From Gammaproteobacteria bacterium (lineage in GTDB: Bacteria > Pseudomonadota > Gammaproteobacteria > Ga0077536), in assembly GCA_016191285.1 (NCBI GenBank), contig JACPPA010000036.1, forward strand, positions 1 to 64,000: DNA of 64,000 nucleotides, written 5' to 3'. Made by a program: the position numbers and the translations under genes. Positions 48,484 through 64,000 of this stretch are shown one piece after another (the first letter of the stretch is position 1; every line of letters starts with the position of its first letter). The notes below the pieces were generated by a model, which had not been told where the DNA came from, did no database searches, and worked only from the letters and a program-made list of their open reading frames with translations.

Positions 48484-50127
48484 TTAGCTCAGGCTACCCA
48501 GCTCATCGGCGAGCTTCCGCAATTTGTATTTTTGGATCTTGCCGGTCGCGGTTTTCGGCAGCTCTTGAAACACGATCGTTTTGGGCGCTTTGAAATGCGC
48601 GATGTGTTCGCGGCAGTATTTGATCAACGCCTCGGCGCTGACGGCCGGCGCATCCGCTTTGAGCCATACGAAGGCGCACGGCGTCTCGCCCCATTTGGTG
48701 TCGGGACGCGCGACCACCGCGGCTTCCAACACCGCTGGATGGCGGTAGAGCACTTCCTCGACTTCGATCGATGAAATGTTCTCGCCGCCGGAAATGATGA
48801 TGTCCTTCGAGCGATCTTTAATCTGAATATAGTTTTCGGGATGCATGACGCCGAGATCGCCGGAATGAAACCAGCCGCCGCTTAACGATTCCGCGGTGGC
48901 CTTGGCGTTCTTTAAGTAGCCGCGCATCACCACATTGCCTTTGAACATGACTTCGCCGGTGGTCTCGCCATCGCGCGGTACCGGTTGCATCGTGTCCGGG
49001 TCCATCACCTCGAGATCTTCGAGCACTGGATAACGCACCCCCTGGCGGATTTTGAGCGCGGCGCGTTGCTCGCGGCTCAATTGCGACCAACTCTCTTGCA
49101 CGGCGCCTAATACCGCGGGGCCATAGGTCTCGGTGAGCCCGTAGGTGTGAGTAACCCGGAACCCCGCGTCTTCCATCGCATCCAGAATCGCAGCCGGCGG
49201 CGCCGCGCCCGCCGTCATCACCTGGACCTCGCGTGGCAGTAGACGTTTGTCGCTGGCGGCGGCATTGACGACCAAGTTCAAGACGATCGGCGCGCCGCAG
49301 AAATGCGTAACGTGTTCGAGGGCGATGGCTTGATAGATATTCGCGGCACCGATCCGGCGGAGGCATATATTCGTGCCGCCTTGCATCGCCAAGGTCCACG
49401 GAAAACACCAGCCGCAGCAATGGAACATCGGCAGGGTCCACAAATACACCGGATTGAGCGGCATGCTCCAACTGACGGCATTGCTCATGGCGTTCAAATA
49501 CGCGCCACGGTGGTGATAGACCACGCCTTTGGGATTACCGGTGGTGCCCGAGGTGTAGCACAGCGCCACGGCCTGCCATTCATCGCGCGGTAACTCCCAC
49601 GGTGACTCTGGATCGCCTGCCGCCAGCAAATCTTCGTACTCGAGTGTGCCGAGTCGTTCGTGACACGGCGCGCTGATATCGGCGATGTCGATGACAAGCG
49701 GCCGCACCTGGCACTTGCTGAGCGCCTCGCGCACCACGGGCGCGAATTCGGTGTCGGTGAGCAGCACCTTCGCCTCGCCGTGATCGAGAATGAAGGCGAT
49801 CGCGTCCGCGTCCAGTCGAATATTGATGGGGTTTAACACCGCGCCGGTTGCGGGTACGCCAAACAACGCTTCGTAGAACGCCGGGATATTGGTCGCGATG
49901 ATGGCGACGGTATCGCCCAGCCCGACGCCGCGCTGCTTCAACGCCGAGCATAGGCGGCGGCAACGCGCGAAGGTCTCGCGCCAGGTGCGCCGCTCAGCGT
50001 GGTGCACGACGGCGATTCGATCGGGATAAACCGACGCCGCGCGTTCGATGAAGGACAGCGGCGACAGTGGCGTGTAGTTGGCCGCGCACCGCGCCAACTC
50101 CTGTTCGTATTGATTCACGGCTGACAT
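48484..50127 (-). CDS. AMP-forming acyl-CoA synthetase
   Basis: A 547-residue ANL-superfamily ligase that activates a carboxylic acid as acyl-AMP, then forms the CoA thioester. Core motifs: LCYTSGTTGNPKGVVYHHRG, TYGLTETYGPAVLG, WFHSGDLGVMHPENYIQIKD, ISGGENISSIEVEE and the catalytic Lys in LPKTATGKIQKYKLR. Resembles medium-chain/fatty-acid ligases. The 8-base gap from the enoyl-CoA hydratase gene upstream suggests a short acid-degradation operon. Confidence 0.9.
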   Translation of the reverse strand: MSAVNQYEQELARCAANYTPLSPLSFIERAASVYPDRIAVVHHAERRTWRETFARCRRLCSALKQRGVGLGDTVAIIATNIPAFYEALFGVPATGAVLNPINIRLDADAIAFILDHGEAKVLLTDTEFAPVVREALSKCQVRPLVIDIADISAPCHERLGTLEYEDLLAAGDPESPWELPRDEWQAVALCYTSGTTGNPKGVVYHHRGAYLNAMSNAVSWSMPLNPVYLWTLPMFHCCGWCFPWTLAMQGGTNICLRRIGAANIYQAIALEHVTHFCGAPIVLNLVVNAAASDKRLLPREVQVMTAGAAPPAAILDAMEDAGFRVTHTYGLTETYGPAVLGAVQESWSQLSREQRAALKIRQGVRYPVLEDLEVMDPDTMQPVPRDGETTGEVMFKGNVVMRGYLKNAKATAESLSGGWFHSGDLGVMHPENYIQIKDRSKDIIISGGENISSIEVEEVLYRHPAVLEAAVVARPDTKWGETPCAFVWLKADAPAVSAEALIKYCREHIAHFKAPKTIVFQELPKTATGKIQKYKLRKLADELGSLS

Positions 50128-50135
50128 GCGTATCC

Positions 50136-50936
50136 TTAACTAAAGCGCGGCTCGCGTTTCTCAAAAAAAGCATTCAAGCCTTCTAATCCATCGTCGGCGA
50201 GCAGATTTTGCACGAGGTCGGCGGCGGCACAACGATAGGCGCCATCGAGCGGCTGATTGGCCTGCGCATAAAAGGATGCCTTGCCAAGCTTCATCGCGTA
50301 GCTCGACTTGCGCGCGAGCTTGGTGGCCAGGGCTGTCACTTCGGCATCGAGCTTGGCATCGTCGAGCGCATGATTGATCAGGCCGATCCCGGCTGCGGTG
50401 TCGGCGTCGACGAAATCGCCGGTAAAGAGCATTTCCAAGGCGTACTTGCGCGCCACGGTGCGCGACAGGGCCACCGCCGGCGTGGCGCAAAATAAGCCGT
50501 AGTTAATTCCCGAAGTGGCAAAGCGCGCACTGCGTGCCGCGAGCGCCAGATCGCAACTCGCAACGAGTTGACAACCCGCCGCAGTCGCGATCCCCTGCAC
50601 CTTGGCAATGACGGGCTGGGGCAGCGTAACCACCGCTTGCATCATGCGCGAGCAATCGCCGAGCAATTTGTCGAGAAACTCGCGGTTGTGATTAGCGCGC
50701 ATTTCTTTAAGGTCATGACCCGTACAAAACGCCCGCCCCGTACTCGCGAGCACCACCACGCGCACGTTGGAATCGTCGGCGAGTTCGGCAAAAGCCTGCA
50801 ACAGCGCCTCGATCATTTCGGCGGTCAGCGTGTTAAAGCGCTCCGGCCGGTTCAGCGTGAGTGTGGCGATCCCGTGCGCGATGTCGCACAGGAGTGGTGG
50901 GTTATCCGAATGGGCGGTGGTGGCGGTCGCGAGCAT
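50136..50936 (-). CDS. Enoyl-CoA hydratase/isomerase family protein
   Basis: A 266-residue crotonase-fold protein. The oxyanion-hole segments are ASTGRAFCTGHDLKEMRAN and VQGIATAAGCQLVASCDLAL. At the hydratase glutamate positions I see SGINYGLFCATP rather than a clear Glu pair, so a non-hydratase crotonase activity is possible. First gene of the pair with the acyl-CoA synthetase. Confidence 0.85.
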   Translation of the reverse strand: MLATATTAHSDNPPLLCDIAHGIATLTLNRPERFNTLTAEMIEALLQAFAELADDSNVRVVVLASTGRAFCTGHDLKEMRANHNREFLDKLLGDCSRMMQAVVTLPQPVIAKVQGIATAAGCQLVASCDLALAARSARFATSGINYGLFCATPAVALSRTVARKYALEMLFTGDFVDADTAAGIGLINHALDDAKLDAEVTALATKLARKSSYAMKLGKASFYAQANQPLDGAYRCAAADLVQNLLADDGLEGLNAFFEKREPRFS

Positions 50937-54890: not shown

Positions 54891-55640
54891 ATGGCAAAAC
54901 TCTATGGTGACACCGACAAGTTCGGTGAGCAGAATTCCACGCCCGTGGTGGAAGCCTTTCATACCGCGGTGAGAGATCTGGTACGCCGGAAATTCGTTGA
55001 GTCCGGACAATCATGGTCCGAATTTGTATTCGGCGCGGCCCAGCAAGTCATCACGCAATCCGAGTTCGCGGCGATCGATGCACGCTTGCTCGACTATGGA
55101 CATCGCTATGTGTGGTCCGCCGTGGTCTCACAAGAAGAACGCCCGGAAGCCTATCTCCCGGGTCAGACCGCCGGCGAGGATTTGAGCAATTTCAGTTTTG
55201 AACATCCCGATGCGATCACGGCCCTGCCGGACGCGCAAGGACTCGAGTTGCGTGGCGTCGGCGACAACGTGGTCAAGTACGCAACGGATTTGATCGGCAC
55301 CGCGCGCTATGTGCGATCGAGCGCAACGGTGCTGGCGTATCTCAATAGCGGTGTGCCACCAGGAACCATCGCCGTGATCGACGATTCAGGCGGCACCCTG
55401 ACCGCACCCATCCTCGAACAGTTCACTGGCGTGCTCTGCGCTGGCGGCACGGTGCGGTCTCACTTGGGGATATTGACGCGCGAATACGGCATCCCGTGTT
55501 TTATGAATGCGAGAATATCGGGCCTTAAAGAAGGCGATACCGTGCGCCTGGAAACGACAGCCGTGGCCAAAACCGCCGAGGCGTATCAAAAAGGCGTGGA
55601 GATGACGGGTCGCGTGTGGCGGGTGAATAAGCCAGCATGA
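54891..55640 (+). CDS. Stand-alone phosphohistidine (PEP-utilizer swivelling) domain protein
   Basis: 249 residues. The C-terminal half is the mobile His domain of PEP synthase/PPDK: SGVPPGTIAVIDDSGG, then GVLCAGGTVRSHLGILTREY with GIPCF. The likely phospho-accepting His191 is kept, but there is one extra residue before it compared with GGxTSH. The N-terminal ~110 residues match nothing I know. No ATP-grasp or PEP barrel is attached, so it must receive or donate phosphate by partnering. ATG at 54891 follows GAGAG; the frame to 54657 overlaps the divergent permease gene. Its stop overlaps the next gene (ATGA). First gene of the unusual cluster. Confidence 0.85.
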   Translation: MAKLYGDTDKFGEQNSTPVVEAFHTAVRDLVRRKFVESGQSWSEFVFGAAQQVITQSEFAAIDARLLDYGHRYVWSAVVSQEERPEAYLPGQTAGEDLSNFSFEHPDAITALPDAQGLELRGVGDNVVKYATDLIGTARYVRSSATVLAYLNSGVPPGTIAVIDDSGGTLTAPILEQFTGVLCAGGTVRSHLGILTREYGIPCFMNARISGLKEGDTVRLETTAVAKTAEAYQKGVEMTGRVWRVNKPA

Positions 55641-57184
55641 ACCTTACCTACGCACAATTGCTCGAAACCAATAATCTCATTCAGCAGAACACCGACGAGA
55701 CGTATTGGCTGTGTCTGACGCGCACCGTGCAAGAGTCAAAACTTTTTCCCGTATCGCCGTACATGATTTTGTCGTACTTCATGGCGTTTTATCGCTATCC
55801 CACCTTGCTGCGTAAGATCGAAACGCACATGCGGGCCGAGGAAATCGGCGATCGCGTGCGCAGTCGCGGTATCAAATGTCAGAATCCCGCCATGGGTTGG
55901 GGATTGCCGAATTTTTATCTGCTCGGACGTCAATATCTGATCTCGATGGGGCTTATCCGGCCGCAAGACGCGGTTGACGACATCATCTATGTGCTCGATT
56001 TCTGGAAGCGCTTTCAACTGGCCTGGCACCGCAACGATGCGCATATGACCAATCGCGAATTCGGGCATCGGGCGCAAATTCTGCCCGAGCGCCGCTTGCA
56101 AATCTTTCACGCGGATATGTATGACTGCGCCGAAGGCGACCCGCTGCACACCGCGGCGCAGGCCTTCATGGCGGCGACCTCGCAGTATGGGTTTCTGGTG
56201 TCCTGCGAGAGTCGAATCGCCTTGCATAACCAAGGACCGTACAAGCTCGATGACGAGCGCGAAATGATCGTGCGCGATTTCATGGATCTCGCCGAAGGCG
56301 ACTATCCGTGGCTCGATGGCGTGGCGGCCGACGTGCCCTACAACAACCTGACCGTGCCGATGGCGGTCAAGGGCTGTCACTTCAATATCATCGACGACTG
56401 GGGCTCGTTCGAGTCGCAACCCGAATTCAAATCGCATCACATGGTCGGCGTCGGACTTTATACCTCGGATTGTCTGTCTGACACTTACCTGCCCGTGGGT
56501 ATGGAGAGTCGCGAGGAGCTGACGCATACCTTCGAAATGCTGACCCAGAAAGCCAAGGACGCCACCGGCCGCCTGTGGAAACGGATCGCGGGCTGGACCC
56601 GCGATCAAATGATCGACGCGGGCGCCATCGTCTACTTCAGTATCTGCAAGGACATCGCGCACGTCGCGGGTTGCTATGACAGTGCGGATTGGATGCTCAT
56701 CGATGAGCGCGCCGAGCGTTTTCGGCCGTTGCTCAATGACGAATACGGCAACCTGTCGTTATACGAGATCCTGGGACCGCTATCTCATCCGGCACAGCGC
56801 GGACACGACTATCAATTGGCGCAGCACGCGAATATTCCGGCGAATACTTATTCGCTGATCCCGTATTCGATTTTGGACGATGCCGATTACACGCGAACCT
56901 GCGGCGAGCTCAAGCCTGGAATTACTTATCTTGAACCCAAACAAGATCGCTATCGCACGACGCAGGGTGTGTTGTCGCTCGCCGAGTACAACCGGCGGGT
57001 TAAAGCCTTCACACCCTCCTTGTGTGGCGAAAAATATCGCTATAAATGCGAGAGCTGGCTTAAATACCATCACGACACGCCGCTCGCCGACGAGATGTAT
57101 CGAATCGAACAGGTCGCCTCGCGGCGGCTCAAAGATTGCGGCGCCGGATTGAAACGCGCGGATATTGAAAAACTCCGCGATTGA
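55637..57184 (+). CDS. Unassigned 515-residue protein coupled to the phosphohistidine protein
   Basis: I do not recognise the family. It is soluble, with no signal peptide or membrane helix. It is rich in Tyr, His, Asp and Trp, with several motif-like stretches: SRGIKCQNPAMGWGLPNFYL, KGCHFNIIDDWGSFESQPEF, KSHHMVGVGLYTSDCLSDTY and GVLSLAEYNRRVKAF. Translational coupling (4-base overlap) to the His-domain protein suggests a stoichiometric complex. By analogy with rifampin phosphotransferase and phenylphosphate synthase, whose substrate-binding part partners a His domain, it may bind the phosphoryl acceptor. That is inference. A real gene by length, start and operon position. Confidence 0.85.
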   Translation: MNLTYAQLLETNNLIQQNTDETYWLCLTRTVQESKLFPVSPYMILSYFMAFYRYPTLLRKIETHMRAEEIGDRVRSRGIKCQNPAMGWGLPNFYLLGRQYLISMGLIRPQDAVDDIIYVLDFWKRFQLAWHRNDAHMTNREFGHRAQILPERRLQIFHADMYDCAEGDPLHTAAQAFMAATSQYGFLVSCESRIALHNQGPYKLDDEREMIVRDFMDLAEGDYPWLDGVAADVPYNNLTVPMAVKGCHFNIIDDWGSFESQPEFKSHHMVGVGLYTSDCLSDTYLPVGMESREELTHTFEMLTQKAKDATGRLWKRIAGWTRDQMIDAGAIVYFSICKDIAHVAGCYDSADWMLIDERAERFRPLLNDEYGNLSLYEILGPLSHPAQRGHDYQLAQHANIPANTYSLIPYSILDDADYTRTCGELKPGITYLEPKQDRYRTTQGVLSLAEYNRRVKAFTPSLCGEKYRYKCESWLKYHHDTPLADEMYRIEQVASRRLKDCGAGLKRADIEKLRD

Positions 57185-57225
57185 CTTCTCGCGCCGGGCG
57201 CGACTAGCACTGGATACGTCAACTC

Positions 57226-58692
57226 ATGCAAATCGGACAACTCATCCGTCGCGCCGCCCAATACTTTAGTGATGCCGCGTGTCTGATCGAAGGCCCGCGC
57301 CAGATCAGCTTCAAGGAATTCGATGCCGCGACCGATCGCCTGGGCAACGCCTTGCTGGCCCACGGCCTGCAGCCCGGCGAGCGCGTCGGCGTGCTGCTTT
57401 CGAACAGTATCGAATGCCTGATCGCCTACTACGCGGTGGCCAAGGCCGGGTTGGTGCGCGTTGGGCTCAACACGCGCGAGACCGTCGATAATCATCAATA
57501 CAAGATCACCGACGCTGGTTGTCGTGCGGTAATCCACGCCGGTGTGGCTGGCATCGACGCCGAAATGTTAATTGGCCCGGATCGATTACTGACCATGATC
57601 GCGACCGGCCGCGCCGCGCCGTGTGCGATCGATCGCGCACTCGATGCGCCGTATCGCTTGGGCTATACCGGTGGCACCACGGGCAAAGCGAAAGCTGTTA
57701 CGTTAACCACGCGCGGCGAGCTGGCGGAACTGGCGGCGTTTTTGCTCGATTTGATTCCAAACATTCGCGCCGGCGACACGTTCCTGCACGCGGCGCCGAT
57801 CGCGCACGCCTCGGGCGCGTTTTTCTTGCCGGCGCTGGCGCGCGGCGCCACCTCGCTCATCATGCCGAAATTCGATCCGGCGGAATTTATCCGGCTGGCC
57901 GAAGCCACCCAGGCGAGCATGACCTTCCTGGTGCCGACGATGCTCGCGATGATTTTGGAAGAGCCTGTGCTGGCGCGCGCGAAGCTCGCGTTTAATACCA
58001 TCAGCTACGGCGCCTCACCCATTGCCCCGGCGGTGCTCGAGCGCGCGCAGGCGCGGTTTGGCCCAGTGTTCGCGCAAACCTATGGGCAGGCCGAAAGTCC
58101 GATGGTGATCACCTGTTTGAAACCGCATGAACAATCGCGCATTGGATCGTGCGGCCGGCCGTTTACGTTTGTCGACGTGGCGGTGTTGGACGATCAAGAC
58201 CAGCCGTTGCCGCCAGGTGAAATCGGCGAAATTTGTTGCCGCGGTCCCCAGACGATGGCGTATTACTGGAATCGACCCGCGGCCACCGAACAGGCCTTCC
58301 GCAACGGTTGGTTACACACCGGCGATATCGGTCGCATGGATGAGGCAGGGTACTTCTATATTCTCGATCGCAAAAACGACATGTTGATCTCCGGCGGTTA
58401 CAACGTCTATCCGCGCGAAGTCGAAGAGGTGCTTCTCGAAGTCGAAGGCGTGATCGAAGCGGCAGTGATTGGTATCGCGGATGAAAAATGGGGCGATCGC
58501 GTGCATGCGGTGGTCGCCGGCCGCGCCGATCTCGATCCTGAACTCATTCTGGCGCATGCGCGCTCGCGGCTCGCCAATTACAAACGGCCTAAGGCCATCG
58601 AGATCTGGCCCGAATTGCCGAAAAGCGCGGCGAATAAAATTCTCCGGCGTGAAATTCGCGATCGCATTGTGGCGCGCGGGAAACGTGAATAG
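57226..58692 (+). CDS. AMP-forming acyl-CoA ligase of the cluster
   Basis: A 488-residue ANL-family ligase. ATP-binding loop is variant: LGYTGGTTGKAKAVTLTTRG (usual SGTTGxPKG has become GGTTGKAKA). Other motifs are normal: TYGQAESPMVITCL, GWLHTGDIGRMDEAGYFYIL, ISGGYNVYPREVEEVLLEVE. The catalytic-lysine motif reads LPKSAANKILRREIR (Asn where Gly is usual). It should activate an acid, perhaps the product of the nearby carboxylase. The gap to the preceding gene is 41 bases. Confidence 0.88.
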   Translation: MQIGQLIRRAAQYFSDAACLIEGPRQISFKEFDAATDRLGNALLAHGLQPGERVGVLLSNSIECLIAYYAVAKAGLVRVGLNTRETVDNHQYKITDAGCRAVIHAGVAGIDAEMLIGPDRLLTMIATGRAAPCAIDRALDAPYRLGYTGGTTGKAKAVTLTTRGELAELAAFLLDLIPNIRAGDTFLHAAPIAHASGAFFLPALARGATSLIMPKFDPAEFIRLAEATQASMTFLVPTMLAMILEEPVLARAKLAFNTISYGASPIAPAVLERAQARFGPVFAQTYGQAESPMVITCLKPHEQSRIGSCGRPFTFVDVAVLDDQDQPLPPGEIGEICCRGPQTMAYYWNRPAATEQAFRNGWLHTGDIGRMDEAGYFYILDRKNDMLISGGYNVYPREVEEVLLEVEGVIEAAVIGIADEKWGDRVHAVVAGRADLDPELILAHARSRLANYKRPKAIEIWPELPKSAANKILRREIRDRIVARGKRE

Positions 58693-58737
58693 CTGCTCGA
58701 ATTTGATACGCAAGGCGCTGTTATCCGCTGGTGCATC

Positions 58738-58803
58738 TTGTGGGAGCCGCTTTAGCGGCGAATCTTTATCGAGGCTCCTTCGCTGCTAAAGCAGCTCCCA
58801 CAA
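58738..58803. repeat. REP-like inverted pair inside the cluster
   Basis: TTGTGGGAGCCGCTTTAGCG (58738 on) faces TTCGCTGCTAAAGCAGCTCC ending at 58803. It occupies the 194-base gap between the ligase and the 201-residue protein and could attenuate or stabilise the operon transcript. Confidence 0.75.
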
Positions 58804-58886
58804 AATCTAAGTGTCGATTTATCGAATTTGATTGCGACACCAGGACACCAAGATTTAAGAGTAGCGTTGGACGCTGCGGAGACGAA

Positions 58887-59492
58887 ATGATGAATGAAAT
58901 GCATCTGGCCCTGCATGGGCTAGCGATCAAAAAACATGCGGGACCGGCCGCCGTCGCGGCCACCGTGGGCTTAAGCGAAACGCGGGTTGCCGAATTACTG
59001 CAGCAGGCCGTGACCACCGGTCGTGCGAGCGAAGCACAAGGGGCGTATCTGCTGTCGCCAGCGGGACGCCTGATTATCGAGAGCCTGTATTCCAAGCTGT
59101 TCGATCGCGAGCGCCAAGACGGCGCGTTGGCCGGGGCTTACGAAAAATTCGAACGCATCAACACCGAACTGAAACAACTGATTACCGATTGGCAGACCCT
59201 CGACGTCGGGGGCCAAAAAGTTCGCAACGATCATTCCAACAAAGATTATGATGCGCGGGTCTTGGACCGTCTTGGCGCCTTGCACGAGCGATTCACGCCG
59301 GTACTGGCGCAGCTCTGTCGCGGCGTGCCACGCCTCGACCTTTATCGGGAAAAGCTCGATCACGCGCTGGACCGCGCGGAAGCCGGGCAGGTGCAATGGG
59401 TAAGCGATGCGAAAATCGACAGTTTCCACACCGTATGGTTTGAAATGCATGAGGATTTATTGCGCATTTTGGGCCTTCAACGCGAGGAGTAG
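58887..59492 (+). CDS. 201-residue protein with a possible winged-helix N-terminus
   Basis: The N-terminal ~65 residues look like a winged helix-turn-helix (AAVAATVGLSETRVAELLQQ, then AYLLSPAGRLIIESLYSKLF). The rest is helical and charged (YEKFERINTELKQLITDWQT; DRLGALHERFTPVLAQLCRG). No family is assigned. ATG at 58887 follows GGAGACG; the longer frame from 58731 only translates the REP repeat. It lies 32 bases before the PPDK-like gene, so it is either a regulator of the cluster or a small subunit of the dikinase complex. Confidence 0.75.
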   Translation: MMNEMHLALHGLAIKKHAGPAAVAATVGLSETRVAELLQQAVTTGRASEAQGAYLLSPAGRLIIESLYSKLFDRERQDGALAGAYEKFERINTELKQLITDWQTLDVGGQKVRNDHSNKDYDARVLDRLGALHERFTPVLAQLCRGVPRLDLYREKLDHALDRAEAGQVQWVSDAKIDSFHTVWFEMHEDLLRILGLQREE

Positions 59493-59524
59493 GGCGGGCG
59501 CGTTTTCGTTTTACCCGATGACCC

Positions 59525-61267
59525 ATGGCAATTGAATTAGGCGCGTGGACCCTCGCCCTTAACGGCGCGAGCCTGCCCGAAAAATCCTTAATCGGCGGCA
59601 AGGCGTGGTCGATCGCGCGCCTTCGGGCATTCGATCTTCCGGTGCCGCCGGCCTTTGTTATCACCGTCAAAGCGTGTAATGCCTACCTACGCGATGGTGT
59701 AATCCCCGCGACGCTCGACGCCGAAATTCGCGCAGGCATGGCGTGGATCGAAGCACAGGCGGCGCGCCAATTTGGCGGCAGTGCCAAACCCCTGCTGGTC
59801 TCGGTGCGCTCGGGCGCGATGATCTCGATGCCCGGCATGATGGATACCGTGCTCAATCTTGGCATTAATAACGCGACCGCGGCCGCCTTGGCCGCGGAAG
59901 CCGCCGATCCCGAATTCGCGCGCGACACGCACCGGCGTTTTCTCGATCTGTACGCGCGAATCGTATTGCGCGCGACGCTGCCGGAATTAGCTTCCACGGC
60001 AGCGATTGACGATTGGCAGCGCGCGATTTTCGAAGCCACGGATCAGCGCGTGCCTGAAGATCCGTATGCGCAGTTGTGGGGCGCCATCCACGCCGTGTTC
60101 GAATCGTGGAATTCGCGCCGCGCGCGGCGTTACCGCGAGCATCACGGTATCGCGCATGATTTGGGCACTGCGGTGACGGTCCAGGCCATGGTGTTCGGTA
60201 ATCTCGACGATCGATCAGGCACCGGCGTGCTGTTCAGCCGGAATCCACTGACCGGCGATCCCGCGCCCTACGGCGAATACCTGGCGCGTGCGCAGGGCGA
60301 AGACGTGGTGTCCGGCCGCTTTACGCCGCAACCGTTGGCCGCGTTGGCCTCGGCGATGCCCGACCTCCATGCCCAACTGTTGGCCGCCGCCGTGACCTTG
60401 GAACGCGAGAACGGCGACGTGCAGGATATTGAATTCACGATCCAACATGCCGAGCTCTATCTATTGCAAACGCGCGCAGCCAAACGCGCACCCGCGGCGG
60501 CCGTGCGCTTTGCCTGCGACATGGTGCACGAAGGCCGTATCGATCGGGCCACTGCGTTGTCGCGGCTCAGCGCCGAACAAGTGCGCGTGCTCTTAAGCCC
60601 GCGTCTGGCGTCTGGCGTGACGGCGCGTGCGGTCGCGCAGGGCGAAGCGGCCTGCCAAGGCGTCGGTGTTGGCGTGGTGGTGATGAGCAGCGATGAGGCC
60701 GAGCGTCGCGCGCAGGCCGGTGAAGCAGTGGTGTTGGCGCGTGAGACAACGAGTCCGGATGATGTGCACGGCATGCTCGTGGCGCGCGCGGTGATTACCG
60801 AGCAGGGTGGCGCGACCTCGCACGCGGCGGTCGTGAGCCGTGCGCTCGGCGTGCCGTGCGTGGTGGGTTGCGGGGTCGGTAGTTTGGCGGCGCTTACGGG
60901 GACAATGGTCACCGTCGATGGCGCGAGCGGCCAGATTTACGCTGGTAATCTGCCGGTGCTGGCGCCCAACGAGCGCGATGATCCCGCGCTCTGCGAACTC
61001 TTGCGATGGGCCGAGCGCGTGTGTCCGATCACGGTCCTCGACGAGACCGCGCCGGTGGCCGAAGTCTACGATCTCGATGTCGTTAAAGGCGGTGAAGACG
61101 CGACGCAGTTGGCGACCTTGCTCGCTGGCCGCAAAATTGCCAAGGGCGGCGCGATTACCAGCGATGAGGGTGTGAGAGCGGCGCTGCAAGCTGGCGTGAC
61201 CACTATCGTCGCACGGCATCGCTTGCCGGTGATGCTGGCCGCCATCGCGGCGACGCGTGGCGACTGA
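59525..61267 (+). CDS. PPDK-like dikinase lacking the PEP/pyruvate barrel
   Basis: 580 residues against about 870-900 for pyruvate phosphate dikinase. The ATP-grasp part is very PPDK-like: LIGGKAWSIARLRAFDLPVP, SVRSGAMISMPGMMDTVLN (about 93-111), VQAMVFGNLDDRSGTGVLFS, DIEFTIQHAELYLLQTR. The swivelling domain has TSPDDVHGMLVARAVITEQG and GGATSHAAVVSRALGVPCVV with phospho-His433. After DGASGQIYAGNLPV the protein has only about 110 residues instead of the TIM barrel that binds PEP/pyruvate. It can plausibly make phosphohistidine from ATP, but must hand it to another acceptor. Confidence 0.9.
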   Translation: MAIELGAWTLALNGASLPEKSLIGGKAWSIARLRAFDLPVPPAFVITVKACNAYLRDGVIPATLDAEIRAGMAWIEAQAARQFGGSAKPLLVSVRSGAMISMPGMMDTVLNLGINNATAAALAAEAADPEFARDTHRRFLDLYARIVLRATLPELASTAAIDDWQRAIFEATDQRVPEDPYAQLWGAIHAVFESWNSRRARRYREHHGIAHDLGTAVTVQAMVFGNLDDRSGTGVLFSRNPLTGDPAPYGEYLARAQGEDVVSGRFTPQPLAALASAMPDLHAQLLAAAVTLERENGDVQDIEFTIQHAELYLLQTRAAKRAPAAAVRFACDMVHEGRIDRATALSRLSAEQVRVLLSPRLASGVTARAVAQGEAACQGVGVGVVVMSSDEAERRAQAGEAVVLARETTSPDDVHGMLVARAVITEQGGATSHAAVVSRALGVPCVVGCGVGSLAALTGTMVTVDGASGQIYAGNLPVLAPNERDDPALCELLRWAERVCPITVLDETAPVAEVYDLDVVKGGEDATQLATLLAGRKIAKGGAITSDEGVRAALQAGVTTIVARHRLPVMLAAIAATRGD

Positions 61268-61327
61268 CGTCGACGCGGCAATTTCAGGCTAACCTTCAAT
61301 CAAACAATTTGTGCTACGGAAACCAGT

Positions 61328-61837
61328 ATGGCGAATGCAGACATCCCCAAAGTAAGCGCCGAGGACATCGAGAGCCTCATCGAACTCTTTAAGCAGTCGG
61401 GCTGGGATGAAATGCATCTTAAGACTGCAGATCTTGAACTGTTCCTCTCCAATGATCCGAATGCAACGGGTCCGCGTCAGACACCGGCAATCGCTGTGGC
61501 GGGACCCGCGGTCGCTGGTTCAGCCGCCATGCCGACCACCGCCGCGGCGCCGGCGAGTGCGGCGACGATTGGCCATGCAGCGGCCATTCCGGACGGCACG
61601 GTTGCGATCCGCGCGCCCAACCTCGGCACTTTTTATCGCGCACCCAAGCCCGGCGCGCCTCCCTATGTCGAATTGGGTCAGCAGATCGAAATCACCACTG
61701 AGGTGGGTCTGATCGAAGTCATGAAACTGTTCACGCCGGTGCAGGGAAGCGTGCGCGGCGTGGTCCGGGAGATCCGTGCCAAGGATGGGCAAATGGTTGA
61801 GTTCGATGAGCCGTTGATCATCGTCGAACCGAACTAG
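61328..61837 (+). CDS. Biotin carboxyl carrier protein (AccB-like)
   Basis: 169 residues. N-terminal AccB-like segment (SAEDIESLIELFKQSGWDEM), Ala/Pro-rich mobile linker (about 50-90), C-terminal biotinyl domain from AIRAPNLGTFYRAPKPG. The biotinylation motif is EVMKLF with Lys133 (usual EAMKM), 36 residues from the end as expected. It carries carboxybiotin between the biotin carboxylase (next gene, 5-base gap) and the carboxyltransferase. A housekeeping accBC pair would normally be elsewhere with the acetyl-CoA CT genes; here the partner is different. Confidence 0.92.
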   Translation: MANADIPKVSAEDIESLIELFKQSGWDEMHLKTADLELFLSNDPNATGPRQTPAIAVAGPAVAGSAAMPTTAAAPASAATIGHAAAIPDGTVAIRAPNLGTFYRAPKPGAPPYVELGQQIEITTEVGLIEVMKLFTPVQGSVRGVVREIRAKDGQMVEFDEPLIIVEPN

Positions 61838-61842
61838 CGTTA

Positions 61843-63210
61843 ATGCCAATCTCGCGCGTCTTAAGCGTTAACCGCGGCGAAATTGCCGCGCGCGTGGTGC
61901 GTGCCGCGCAGGCGCTCGGGATCGAAGCCGTGCAAGCGGTGTCCGCCGCCGATCGCGACAGTACCGCGGCACGGCTCGCCGATCGCACCGTGGTGATCGG
62001 GCCCGCGGCTTCGCGCCTCAGTTATCTCGATGCGCCGTTGCTGGTGCATGCCGCCAAAGCCACTGGCTGCGATGCGCTTCATCCCGGCTATGGCTTTCTG
62101 TCCGAACGTGAACATTTGGCGCGCCTCTGCGGCGAACACGGCATTACGTTTGTTGGCCCGGCGCCCGAGACCATCGCGGCGTTGGGCGACAAGCTACAAG
62201 CGAAGGCGATTGCGCAAGCCGCGGGTGTTCCGTTGGTGCCAGGGACGGCAAAAATCGCGGATGCCGCGGCCGCGAAGGCGGCGGCGGAAGCACTTGGATT
62301 TCCGGTGTTGTTGAAGGCTTCGGCTGGCGGCGGAGGCCGCGGCATGTTCATTGCCCGGCGTGCCGAAGAGATCGAAGCTTCGTTCGATAAATCCTCGAAT
62401 GAAGCGCTGGAAGCCTTTGGCGACGGCACCATGTACATGGAGCGCTTCGTCGAAAACGCGCGCCATGTCGAAGTCCAGGTGTTCGGCGACGGCAGCGGCA
62501 AAGTGCTGCATTTTGGCGAGCGCGATTGTTCGATCCAGCGGCGCTACCAAAAAGTGTTTGAAGAAGCGCCATGCGCGGCGATGCCGGCCAAGCTGCGGAA
62601 ACTTCTGCACGACTCAGCGGTCGCCTTGGTGGCGTCGCTCAAGTATCGCAATGCCGGCACCGTGGAATTTCTATATGACGTCGATCGCGCGGCGATTTAT
62701 TTCATCGAAGTTAACGCGCGCATCCAGGTCGAACATCCGGTGTCCGAGCAGGTCACCGGCTATGATCTGGTGCAACTGCAGTTTCGGATCGCCGGTGGCG
62801 AGCCCCTGCGCTGGTCGCAAGCGCAGGTGCCGGTACAGGGACACGCGATCGAGTGCCGCATCAATGCCGAAGATCCGACGCGGAATTTTCAACCGAGCCC
62901 GGGACGGATCACGCGCTGGGCACCGCCACACGGCGCCGGGATTCGTCTCGACAGCCATTGTTATGACGGCTATCTGGTGCCGCCGTTCTACGATTCGATG
63001 ATCGGCAAGCTGATTGTCACGGCGGCGACACGCGCCGATTGCGTCACCCGTTTGCAAGCGGCGCTCGCCGCTTTCACAATCGAGGGCCTGATCACCAATC
63101 TACCGCTGCTTAAATTTATCGCGGCGCATCCGGATTTTGCCGCCAATCGATTAAACACTCGCTGGCTCGAGCAGACCTTGCTGCCGGGTTTTGAAGCTTC
63201 GCAGGAGTAA
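61843..63210 (+). CDS. Biotin carboxylase (AccC-like)
   Basis: A 455-residue ATP-grasp enzyme making carboxybiotin from ATP and bicarbonate. Motifs: SVNRGEIAARVVRAAQALGI, HPGYGFLSE, the glycine loop KASAGGGGRGMFIA, FGERDCSIQRRYQKVFEEAP and FIEVNARIQVEHPVSEQVTG (usual NxRxQVEHxVTE; catalytic Glu/Asn/Arg kept). All expected catalytic residues are present, so it looks active. Seven bases separate it from the carboxyltransferase-like gene. Confidence 0.94.
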   Translation: MPISRVLSVNRGEIAARVVRAAQALGIEAVQAVSAADRDSTAARLADRTVVIGPAASRLSYLDAPLLVHAAKATGCDALHPGYGFLSEREHLARLCGEHGITFVGPAPETIAALGDKLQAKAIAQAAGVPLVPGTAKIADAAAAKAAAEALGFPVLLKASAGGGGRGMFIARRAEEIEASFDKSSNEALEAFGDGTMYMERFVENARHVEVQVFGDGSGKVLHFGERDCSIQRRYQKVFEEAPCAAMPAKLRKLLHDSAVALVASLKYRNAGTVEFLYDVDRAAIYFIEVNARIQVEHPVSEQVTGYDLVQLQFRIAGGEPLRWSQAQVPVQGHAIECRINAEDPTRNFQPSPGRITRWAPPHGAGIRLDSHCYDGYLVPPFYDSMIGKLIVTAATRADCVTRLQAALAAFTIEGLITNLPLLKFIAAHPDFAANRLNTRWLEQTLLPGFEASQE

Positions 63211-63217
63211 GGTTCCG

Positions 63218-64000
63218 ATGGCCCATATTGAATTTCTCGACGAGACCATGCGCGACGGCCAGCAAAGCCTGTGGGGCATGCGCATGCAAGCCGGCATGGC
63301 GTTACCCGTGGCGTCGTTGATCGATCGCACCGGCTTTCGGGTGATCGACCTCACGGGTTCGTCGATGTTCGAAGTGCTAATCAAGTACTGTCAAGAGAAT
63401 CCGTGGCAAGGCCTTGACCTCTTAACCCAGGCCATGCCGCGGACCAAAATTCGTGGTGGCATGCGCTCCAATGCGTCGGTGACCTTTAGCGTCACGCCGG
63501 ATGCGTTGATGGATGCGTGGATGCGGCAACTGAATGTGCACGGTTGCCGCAGTTTTTGGATCTACGACGTGCTGTTCAATATCGACAAGATGCATCGCCT
63601 GGCCAAAGTCGCGAAGGAGTTTGGTTCGGAAGTCGCCGGCGCGATCATGTTCACCTTGAGCCCGGTGCATTCCGATGCCTACTATGCCGACAAAGCGGAC
63701 AAGCTTTCGGCGTGCAAGGATATCGATACCTTGCTGCTGTACGACACCGCTGGCGTGCTCGAAAAAGAACGCATGCAGACCTTGATCCCGGCGCTCATCG
63801 CCAACGCGCGCGGCAAGCCCATTGAATTCCATTCCAACAATCTACTGGGCCAGTCCGCCAAAGCGTATCTAGATGCGGTGGAACTTGGTGTACGCATTTT
63901 GCACACGGCGAGTCGGCCGATGGCGAACGGCCCGTCGGTGCCGTCGACCGAAATCATGGTGCGTAATATTGAATTGCTCGGGCACACGCATTCGCTCGAC
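63218..64000 (+). CDS. Atypical HMGL/pyruvate-carboxylase-like carboxyltransferase (3' partial)
   Basis: The first 261 residues are visible; the frame is open at the window end. The fold matches the carboxyltransferase of pyruvate carboxylase/oxaloacetate decarboxylase: FLDETMRDGQQSLWGMRMQA, with metal Asp13 kept, TKIRGGMRSN, FWIYDVLFNIDKMHRLA, TLSPVHSDAYYADKADKL. The strongly aligned IKDMAGL, whose Lys is carbamylated and binds metal, reads LYDTAGV (Tyr175). The HxH metal pair reads EFHSNN (His205, Asn207). So the active site differs from known members and the substrate is likely not pyruvate. RBS AGGAGTAAGG overlaps the end of the biotin carboxylase gene. Confidence 0.85.
   Translation, partial: MAHIEFLDETMRDGQQSLWGMRMQAGMALPVASLIDRTGFRVIDLTGSSMFEVLIKYCQENPWQGLDLLTQAMPRTKIRGGMRSNASVTFSVTPDALMDAWMRQLNVHGCRSFWIYDVLFNIDKMHRLAKVAKEFGSEVAGAIMFTLSPVHSDAYYADKADKLSACKDIDTLLLYDTAGVLEKERMQTLIPALIANARGKPIEFHSNNLLGQSAKAYLDAVELGVRILHTASRPMANGPSVPSTEIMVRNIELLGHTHSLD

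Follow-up and report, generated by a model that had tools for sequence, protein, structure and literature searches.

An operon joining a PPDK-type kinase to a biotin-dependent carboxylase is conserved across bacterial classes and probably serves an Hpe-like catabolic route for ketones

Eight co-directional genes encode kinase, ligase, and biotin carboxylase components

The DNA analyzed here (the window) is the first 64,000 nucleotides of contig JACPPA010000036.1 from a gammaproteobacterial genome (assembly GCA_016191285.1), and its end carries a cluster of eight genes, A to H, in which the parts of an unusual kinase stand beside those of a biotin-dependent carboxylase. All eight open reading frames (ORFs) were confirmed and lie on the + strand; there is one 4-nt overlap and the gaps are otherwise 5 to 60 nt, with the exception of 194 nt upstream of D. 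An earlier note on this DNA had described eight co-directional genes with short gaps or overlaps; the part identities that it gave are borne out by the ORF positions, by Pfam and NCBIfam families, and, for D, by structure prediction, and the short spacing holds everywhere except before D.

Gene A (54891..55640) encodes a 249-aa free phosphohistidine (swivel) domain protein (Pfam PEP-utilizers, 1.4e-6). B (55637..57184) encodes a 515-aa protein that has no family match in Pfam or NCBIfam, is predicted to have a novel fold, and is likely the acceptor-site subunit of a split dikinase. C (57226..58692) is an AMP-forming acyl-CoA ligase of 488 aa (Pfam AMP-binding, 3.3e-72), and D (58887..59492) is a 201-aa winged-helix and helical-bundle protein, recognized by AlphaFold and Foldseek, that is a putative partner of E. 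E (59525..61267; 580 aa) consists of ATP-grasp and swivel domains derived from pyruvate phosphate dikinase (PPDK) without the phosphoenolpyruvate (PEP) barrel (Pfam PPDK_N, 3.5e-43, and PEP-utilizers); it scores 707 bits against NCBIfam PRK05878 versus 117 bits against PEP synthase and is therefore PPDK-type. F (61328..61837) is a biotin carboxyl carrier protein (Pfam Biotin_lipoyl, 8e-13) and G (61843..63210) a 455-aa biotin carboxylase (NCBIfam PRK08591, 599 bits, above the cut-off). H, a carboxyltransferase of the PycB/OadA/HpeB kind with an altered metal site and a weak HMGL/PycB-like match, begins at 63218, crosses the window edge at 64000, and ends at contig position 64678. The genes beyond 64000, where the earlier note had advised looking for thiolase, dehydrogenase, or transporter genes, do include a thiolase downstream of H (contig 64931-66133) and a short-chain dehydrogenase/reductase (SDR; contig 66296-67078), followed by an AAT-family protein.

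The cluster had been thought to lack any described counterpart, but the Hpe pathway of Rhodococcus rhodochrous GD02 (HpeHI dikinase, HpeCBA carboxylase, HpeD, HpeE, and HpeF) and its relatives, Acv of Sphingobium SYK-6 and Xcc of Aromatoleum aromaticum, are close counterparts (PMC9618137, PMC12167813). HpeHI phosphorylates acetovanillone and 4-hydroxyacetophenone, HpeCBA carboxylates the phosphorylated ketones only, and the later steps are those of a phosphatase, a CoA ligase, and a hydrolase (PMC9618137). No published description of the cluster itself was found in openly licensed papers (supplements excluded); Fig. S5 of PMC9618137 may depict relatives of it.

The gene order is conserved in distant taxa

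GTDB contigs were scanned with B as the query, which returned 33 loci. The complete A-B-C-D-E-F-G-H order on one strand was present at 17 of these, not counting the window's own genome, so all eight genes do recur in the same order elsewhere, as the earlier note had thought worth checking. Most of the remaining loci are partial stretches of the same order, and many end at contig edges. The carriers are Gammaproteobacteria, Alphaproteobacteria (Roseiarcus, Pararhodobacter, and Rhodosalinus), and Pseudonocardia, and the complete order is found in three classes. Two Rhodococcus plasmids also have the A–H order, followed by genes for an OB-fold protein, a thiolase, a tyrosine-phosphatase-family (Y_phosphatase3) protein, and an SRPBCC protein. 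Rearranged forms occur as well: one actinobacterial locus (L030) holds the eight genes inside approximately 16 kb in a different order, another (L032) has five of the eight, and Novosphingobium plasmid pSA1 reads B-F-G-H-C-thiolase-A-D-E.

Flanking genes differ between taxa, and no substrate could be read from the neighbors at the loci examined. A phosphatase gene is absent from the conserved proteobacterial core and from the gammaproteobacterial operons seen, and a Y_phosphatase3-family gene lies upstream of the cluster in several alphaproteobacterial loci. Three public records of metagenome-assembled genomes (MAGs; L003, L009, and L012) are titled Klebsiella pneumoniae; their clusters are 80-87% identical to those of environmental gammaproteobacterial MAGs, and the titles are probably wrong.

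B and H occur together even when their genes are unlinked

Of 36 genomes of the window's order, 29 had B, 25 had H proper, and 23 had E. H and E were never present without B, and all 25 genomes with H carried B (Fisher p 4e-5 for the association of B with H, kinship not corrected for). The four genomes with B and no H are all draft assemblies, split into 80 to 910 contigs. Several genera have both B and the E–H genes, but on separate contigs, and second B genes were seen at distances of 0.6 to 1.6 kb from second H genes. Among 398 genomes across the phylum, B or H proper occurred in the window's own genome only, and the next H-like score was 414 bits compared with 978.

The pattern was similar in an actinobacterial order of 250 genomes: five had B, all five also had H (one H being a fragment), and none of the B-less genomes gave an H match above 700 bits. 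E-family proteins are frequent without B in the same order, which indicates that E is a shared module and that the specific pair is B with H. The earlier note had staked its proposal beforehand on B and the biotin genes being found together; B and H co-occur in two phyla, and the proposal came through that check.

That the cluster is a chance neighborhood of unrelated modules is extremely improbable and was rejected: E and D are found elsewhere without B, but the gene order is kept in distant taxa, co-occurrence persists where the genes are unlinked or rearranged, and second B copies sit beside second H copies.

The kinase is probably assembled from E, D, A, and a protein with no known structural relative

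When E was aligned with PPDK, the PPDK ATP-site residues (K26, R95, E303, and R317) were all kept, as was the phosphohistidine, H433. The PEP/pyruvate barrel (PEP-utilizers C) was absent from E by both Pfam and the PPDK alignment, the protein stopping at 580 aa, as the earlier description of a PPDK-like ATP-grasp/His protein without a barrel had it. A has its catalytic His191 in the motif GGTVRSH, and RSH is conserved in 34/34 A homologs.

The suggestion that D is a winged-helix protein was also correct. Its AlphaFold model has a pLDDT of 94.8 and the Foldseek winged-helix matches cover the N-terminal part; no Pfam or NCBIfam family matched. D adjoins E, and on plasmids of Mycobacterium branderi and Diaphorobacter, D homologs adjoin PPDK-like genes, with other PEP-utilizing proteins in the place of B. 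A similar arrangement is known from Mycobacterium tuberculosis, in which VadK (Rv1127c) autophosphorylates and is better produced with its operonic partner Rv1126c (PMC13400623). Like E, VadK is a PPDK-derived ATP-grasp and swivel protein without the PEP barrel, encoded beside a small partner gene, and it would be expected to fall in NCBIfam PRK05878 with E; D looks like the corresponding partner of E, the comparison with Rv1126c being one of gene position. Whereas VadK is described as a regulatory kinase, E stands among catabolic genes, together with another swivel protein, B, and a biotin carboxylase. Two D homologs (L066:8983-9585 and L058:14207-14779) are publicly annotated as MarR-family transcriptional regulators. 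This annotation probably stems from the winged helix, and D in the window looks like a kinase partner.

The AlphaFold model of B is confident (pLDDT 84.5, pTM 0.87), and an alignment of 28 homologs contains many invariant polar residues. No match for B was found in the PDB by sequence or by fold, the best fold match having an E value of 1.3. In the second copy in the window's own genome, B is fused to D (729 aa), and swivel, B-like, and D-like regions are joined in one fused protein in Rhodococcus opacus B4; because of these fusions, B is most simply read as the acceptor part of a split dikinase.

The second copy of the kinase parts (L038:7015-12857; contig C50, 107014-112856) comprises a 280-aa P-loop-like protein without a Pfam match, a Y_phosphatase3 protein, A2, the B2-D2 fusion, and an SDR. 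It has neither its own ATP half nor biotin genes, and a second H lies beside the corresponding copy in sister genomes. Divergent A/B paralog sets stand directly upstream of the cluster on the Rhodococcus plasmids (L056:9311-12882 and L057:9902-13106) and in Pseudonocardia (L027:2174-5573), both as separate proteins and as swivel-B fusions, showing that the B superfamily extends beyond the operon. A long ORF at L055, seemingly A with an extra N-terminal domain, looks like ORF read-through and was not used.

H forms its own clade of carboxyltransferases and has an altered metal site

The biotinyl lysine of F, Lys133, lies in EVMK, and a motif of this type is present in 21/21 F homologs. H is 37% identical to the carboxyltransferase of a cluster that has hpe gene content and lies on a Rhizobium plasmid (PEP-utilizing enzyme, ATP-grasp protein, biotin carrier, biotin carboxylase, carboxyltransferase, HAD hydrolase, and CoA ligase), approximately 36% identical to carboxyltransferases on Sphingomonas bisphenolicum and Pseudomonas putida YC-AE1 plasmids, and 28% identical to oxaloacetate decarboxylase. 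In a phylogenetic tree, H formed one clade (100/99) that grouped with HpeB-like carboxyltransferases (98/91), with pyruvate carboxylase and OadA outside; the HpeB-like enzymes were identified by the gene content of their clusters, not by comparison with the HpeB sequence.

The earlier note had called H an altered carboxyltransferase, and the alteration could be placed in the metal site. The metal-site Lys and the HxH motif are intact in pyruvate carboxylase, OadA, and the HpeB-like enzymes, whereas in proteobacterial H the Lys is replaced by Tyr174 and HxH by H204-S-N206, so that two of the four metal ligands are gone; the metal-site Asp and first His are retained in the window's H. Rhodococcus and Pseudonocardia H have Glu for Lys and the motif HFHSNN remains, and, judged from these residues, the actinobacterial proteins may still bind metal. 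The idea that the metal site is wholly lost across the entire H family was withdrawn because Glu and a motif resembling HxH persist in actinobacterial H. No other PycB-type gene was found in the genome, but the clade of H and the change in its metal site also led us to reject it as the genome's pyruvate carboxylase. Kinase-free trios of a PycB-like carboxyltransferase, a biotin carrier, and a biotin carboxylase were seen at L063:8980-12392, L065:8932-12330, and L069:6139-9449; these adjoin biotin transporter or acetoacetate decarboxylase genes and have no kinase gene nearby.

The operon probably works like the Hpe pathway with a different kinase

With Hpe, Acv, and Xcc the window operon has in common a kinase of ATP-grasp and phosphohistidine swivel domains, a three-subunit biotin carboxylase (F, G, and H) with a related type of carboxyltransferase, a CoA ligase (C), and a final carbon-carbon cleavage. 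The kinases differ in their parts: HpeH has a swivel and a rifampin-binding-like domain and HpeI is an RPH-type ATP-grasp protein, whereas the operon has a PPDK-type ATP half (E) with its winged-helix partner D, an additional free swivel protein (A), and the 515-aa B with its predicted novel fold. B had no match to rifampin phosphotransferase structures, and the E value of its best PDB match sets it apart from the rifampin-binding-like domain of HpeH. Hpe uses a HAD-type phosphatase, HpeD, whereas genes A to K include none and the Rhodococcus operons have Y_phosphatase3 instead; Hpe ends in a hydrolase, whereas the operon has a thiolase; and the metal site of Hpe-type carboxyltransferases is intact, unlike that of H. 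Because two defining features of the Hpe pathway were tested for and not found, the operon is a variant that works like that pathway, not a member of it. The strategy of phosphorylating and then carboxylating is already known from lignin-degrading bacteria; what is new is a kinase built from different parts.

Other biotin enzymes and dikinases are further removed. Pyruvate carboxylase, the oxaloacetate decarboxylase alpha subunit, and transcarboxylase 5S belong to the same TIM-barrel carboxyltransferase family and work with biotin carboxylase and carrier, but H has approximately 28% identity to them, has the metal-site Lys and second His replaced, and is marked by its clade as something other than an enzyme of pyruvate or oxaloacetate. 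Acetone and acetophenone carboxylases (Acx and Apc), for which ATP-dependent activation of the ketone before carboxylation has been proposed, have hydantoinase-like subunits and no biotin; none of A to H matches a hydantoinase-like domain, and the window has biotin proteins. Phenylphosphate synthase, CreHI, and rifampin phosphotransferase resemble the window kinase as split or fused small-molecule dikinases with a phosphohistidine, but their acceptor domain is rifampin-binding-like, which B is not by sequence or fold. The window's own genome does encode an HpeHI/CreHI-like two-component dikinase pair on contig C40 (L074:7607-10416), inside an operon that also has genes for phenol hydroxylase, extradiol dioxygenase, meta-cleavage, and a HAD hydrolase; no HpeB-type carboxyltransferase was found in this genome.

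A proposed pathway and its alternatives

We propose that the operon probably encodes an Hpe-like catabolic route for an enolizable ketone or hydroxyketone, in which the substrate is phosphorylated by a new kinase, carboxylated, activated with CoA, and thiolyzed. E, with its partner D, would use ATP to phosphorylate its own histidine. The phosphoryl group would then pass to the A histidine or be shared with it (A could take it from the E histidine or directly at the ATP site of E) and be delivered to substrate bound by B. The biotin enzyme F-G-H would carboxylate the phosphorylated ketone at its alpha carbon, C would convert the resulting beta-keto acid to a CoA ester, and the downstream thiolase would split this into acyl-CoA and acetyl-CoA. 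The SDR could form the ketone from an alcohol or reduce an intermediate.

The proposal builds on gene content, order, and co-occurrence; on domain identities and the conserved catalytic histidines, ATP-site, and biotin residues; and on the tree position of H beside carboxyltransferases of hpe-like clusters and the fusions that link A, B, and D. From these we infer the phosphoryl relay, the acceptor site in B, the class of substrate, and what becomes of the phosphate. The earlier note had likewise supposed phosphoryl activation, carboxylation by carboxybiotin, and trapping as a CoA ester. This general logic is well supported because of the homology to Hpe, where HpeCBA takes the phosphorylated ketone only, and because of the downstream thiolase; the ketone oxygen itself is one possible site for the phosphoryl group. 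Several points weigh against the proposal. H was likened to carboxyltransferases from clusters with hpe gene content and not to HpeB itself, and, given its altered metal site, it is not certain that proteobacterial H retains carboxyltransferase activity. The window kinase is not homologous to HpeHI beyond the common ATP-grasp and swivel folds, and for its relative VadK a regulatory role as a histidine kinase has been reported (PMC13400623).

Two variants together share the probability that we give to this route. In the first, which is possible, a hydroxyl away from the ketone is phosphorylated, the carboxylase needs the phosphate for recognition, and the phosphate is later taken off by a Y_phosphatase3-type phosphatase whose gene lies in the operon or elsewhere. 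This logic equals that of HpeHI/HpeCBA/HpeD (PMC9618137), and a phosphatase gene is present both in the Rhodococcus operons and beside the second A-B-D copy in the window's own genome. The operonic phosphatase and possibly intact metal site of the Actinobacteria favor this variant; it is harder to reconcile with gammaproteobacterial operons seen without a phosphatase, and it leaves the metal-site change of proteobacterial H unexplained.

In the second variant, which we hold more tentatively, the kinase phosphorylates the ketone oxygen and carboxybiotin carboxylates the enol phosphate with loss of phosphate, so that neither a metal-stabilized enolate nor a phosphatase would be needed; this sharpens both our proposal and the inference of the earlier note. 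It is favored by the lack of a phosphatase gene in the proteobacterial core and the gammaproteobacterial operons, together with the loss in proteobacterial H of two of the four metal ligands that pyruvate carboxylase, OadA, and HpeB-like enzymes keep. Against it, actinobacterial H with Glu and HFHSNN may bind metal and comes from operons with a Y_phosphatase3 gene, this family is also found upstream in several alphaproteobacterial loci, and the characterized HpeCBA handles a phosphate remote from the ketone. The metal-site change in H makes the enol-phosphate idea directly testable. A stronger form, which we consider rather unlikely, is that the operon encodes a third class of ATP-dependent ketone carboxylase, in which a four-part relay dikinase (E and D to A to B) makes the enol phosphate of a plain ketone and a biotin carboxyltransferase without a metal site carboxylates it, releasing phosphate. 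If true, VadK and Rv1126c of M. tuberculosis would be the ATP half of a small-molecule dikinase and not a regulatory kinase.

A regulatory role for the kinase is quite improbable. Under that explanation, E-D would phosphorylate proteins, and A and B would be a signaling relay controlling an ordinary biotin carboxylase. In its favor, VadK, which autophosphorylates, has been reported as a regulator of the methylcitrate cycle (PMC13400623), D has a winged helix, and E is widespread without B. However, the A and B families co-occur specifically with H in catabolic operons with a CoA ligase and thiolase. Swivel, acceptor, and ATP-grasp parts are the architecture of small-molecule dikinases (PMC12167813), and hpe-like carboxyltransferases also sit with dikinases.

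The catabolic route proposed here would extend phosphorylation-dependent biotin carboxylation beyond the few known degraders of lignin ketones to an operon conserved across several classes of bacteria. It also exposes the 515-residue B family, with a confident model and no structural relative, and places a D-E pair resembling Rv1126c/VadK in a catabolic kinase setting, which suggests a testable biochemical role for VadK.

Elsewhere in the window, acyl-CoA synthetase and enoyl-CoA hydratase genes lie on the minus strand at 48484-50936, and a similar pair stands upstream of the cluster in locus L005.

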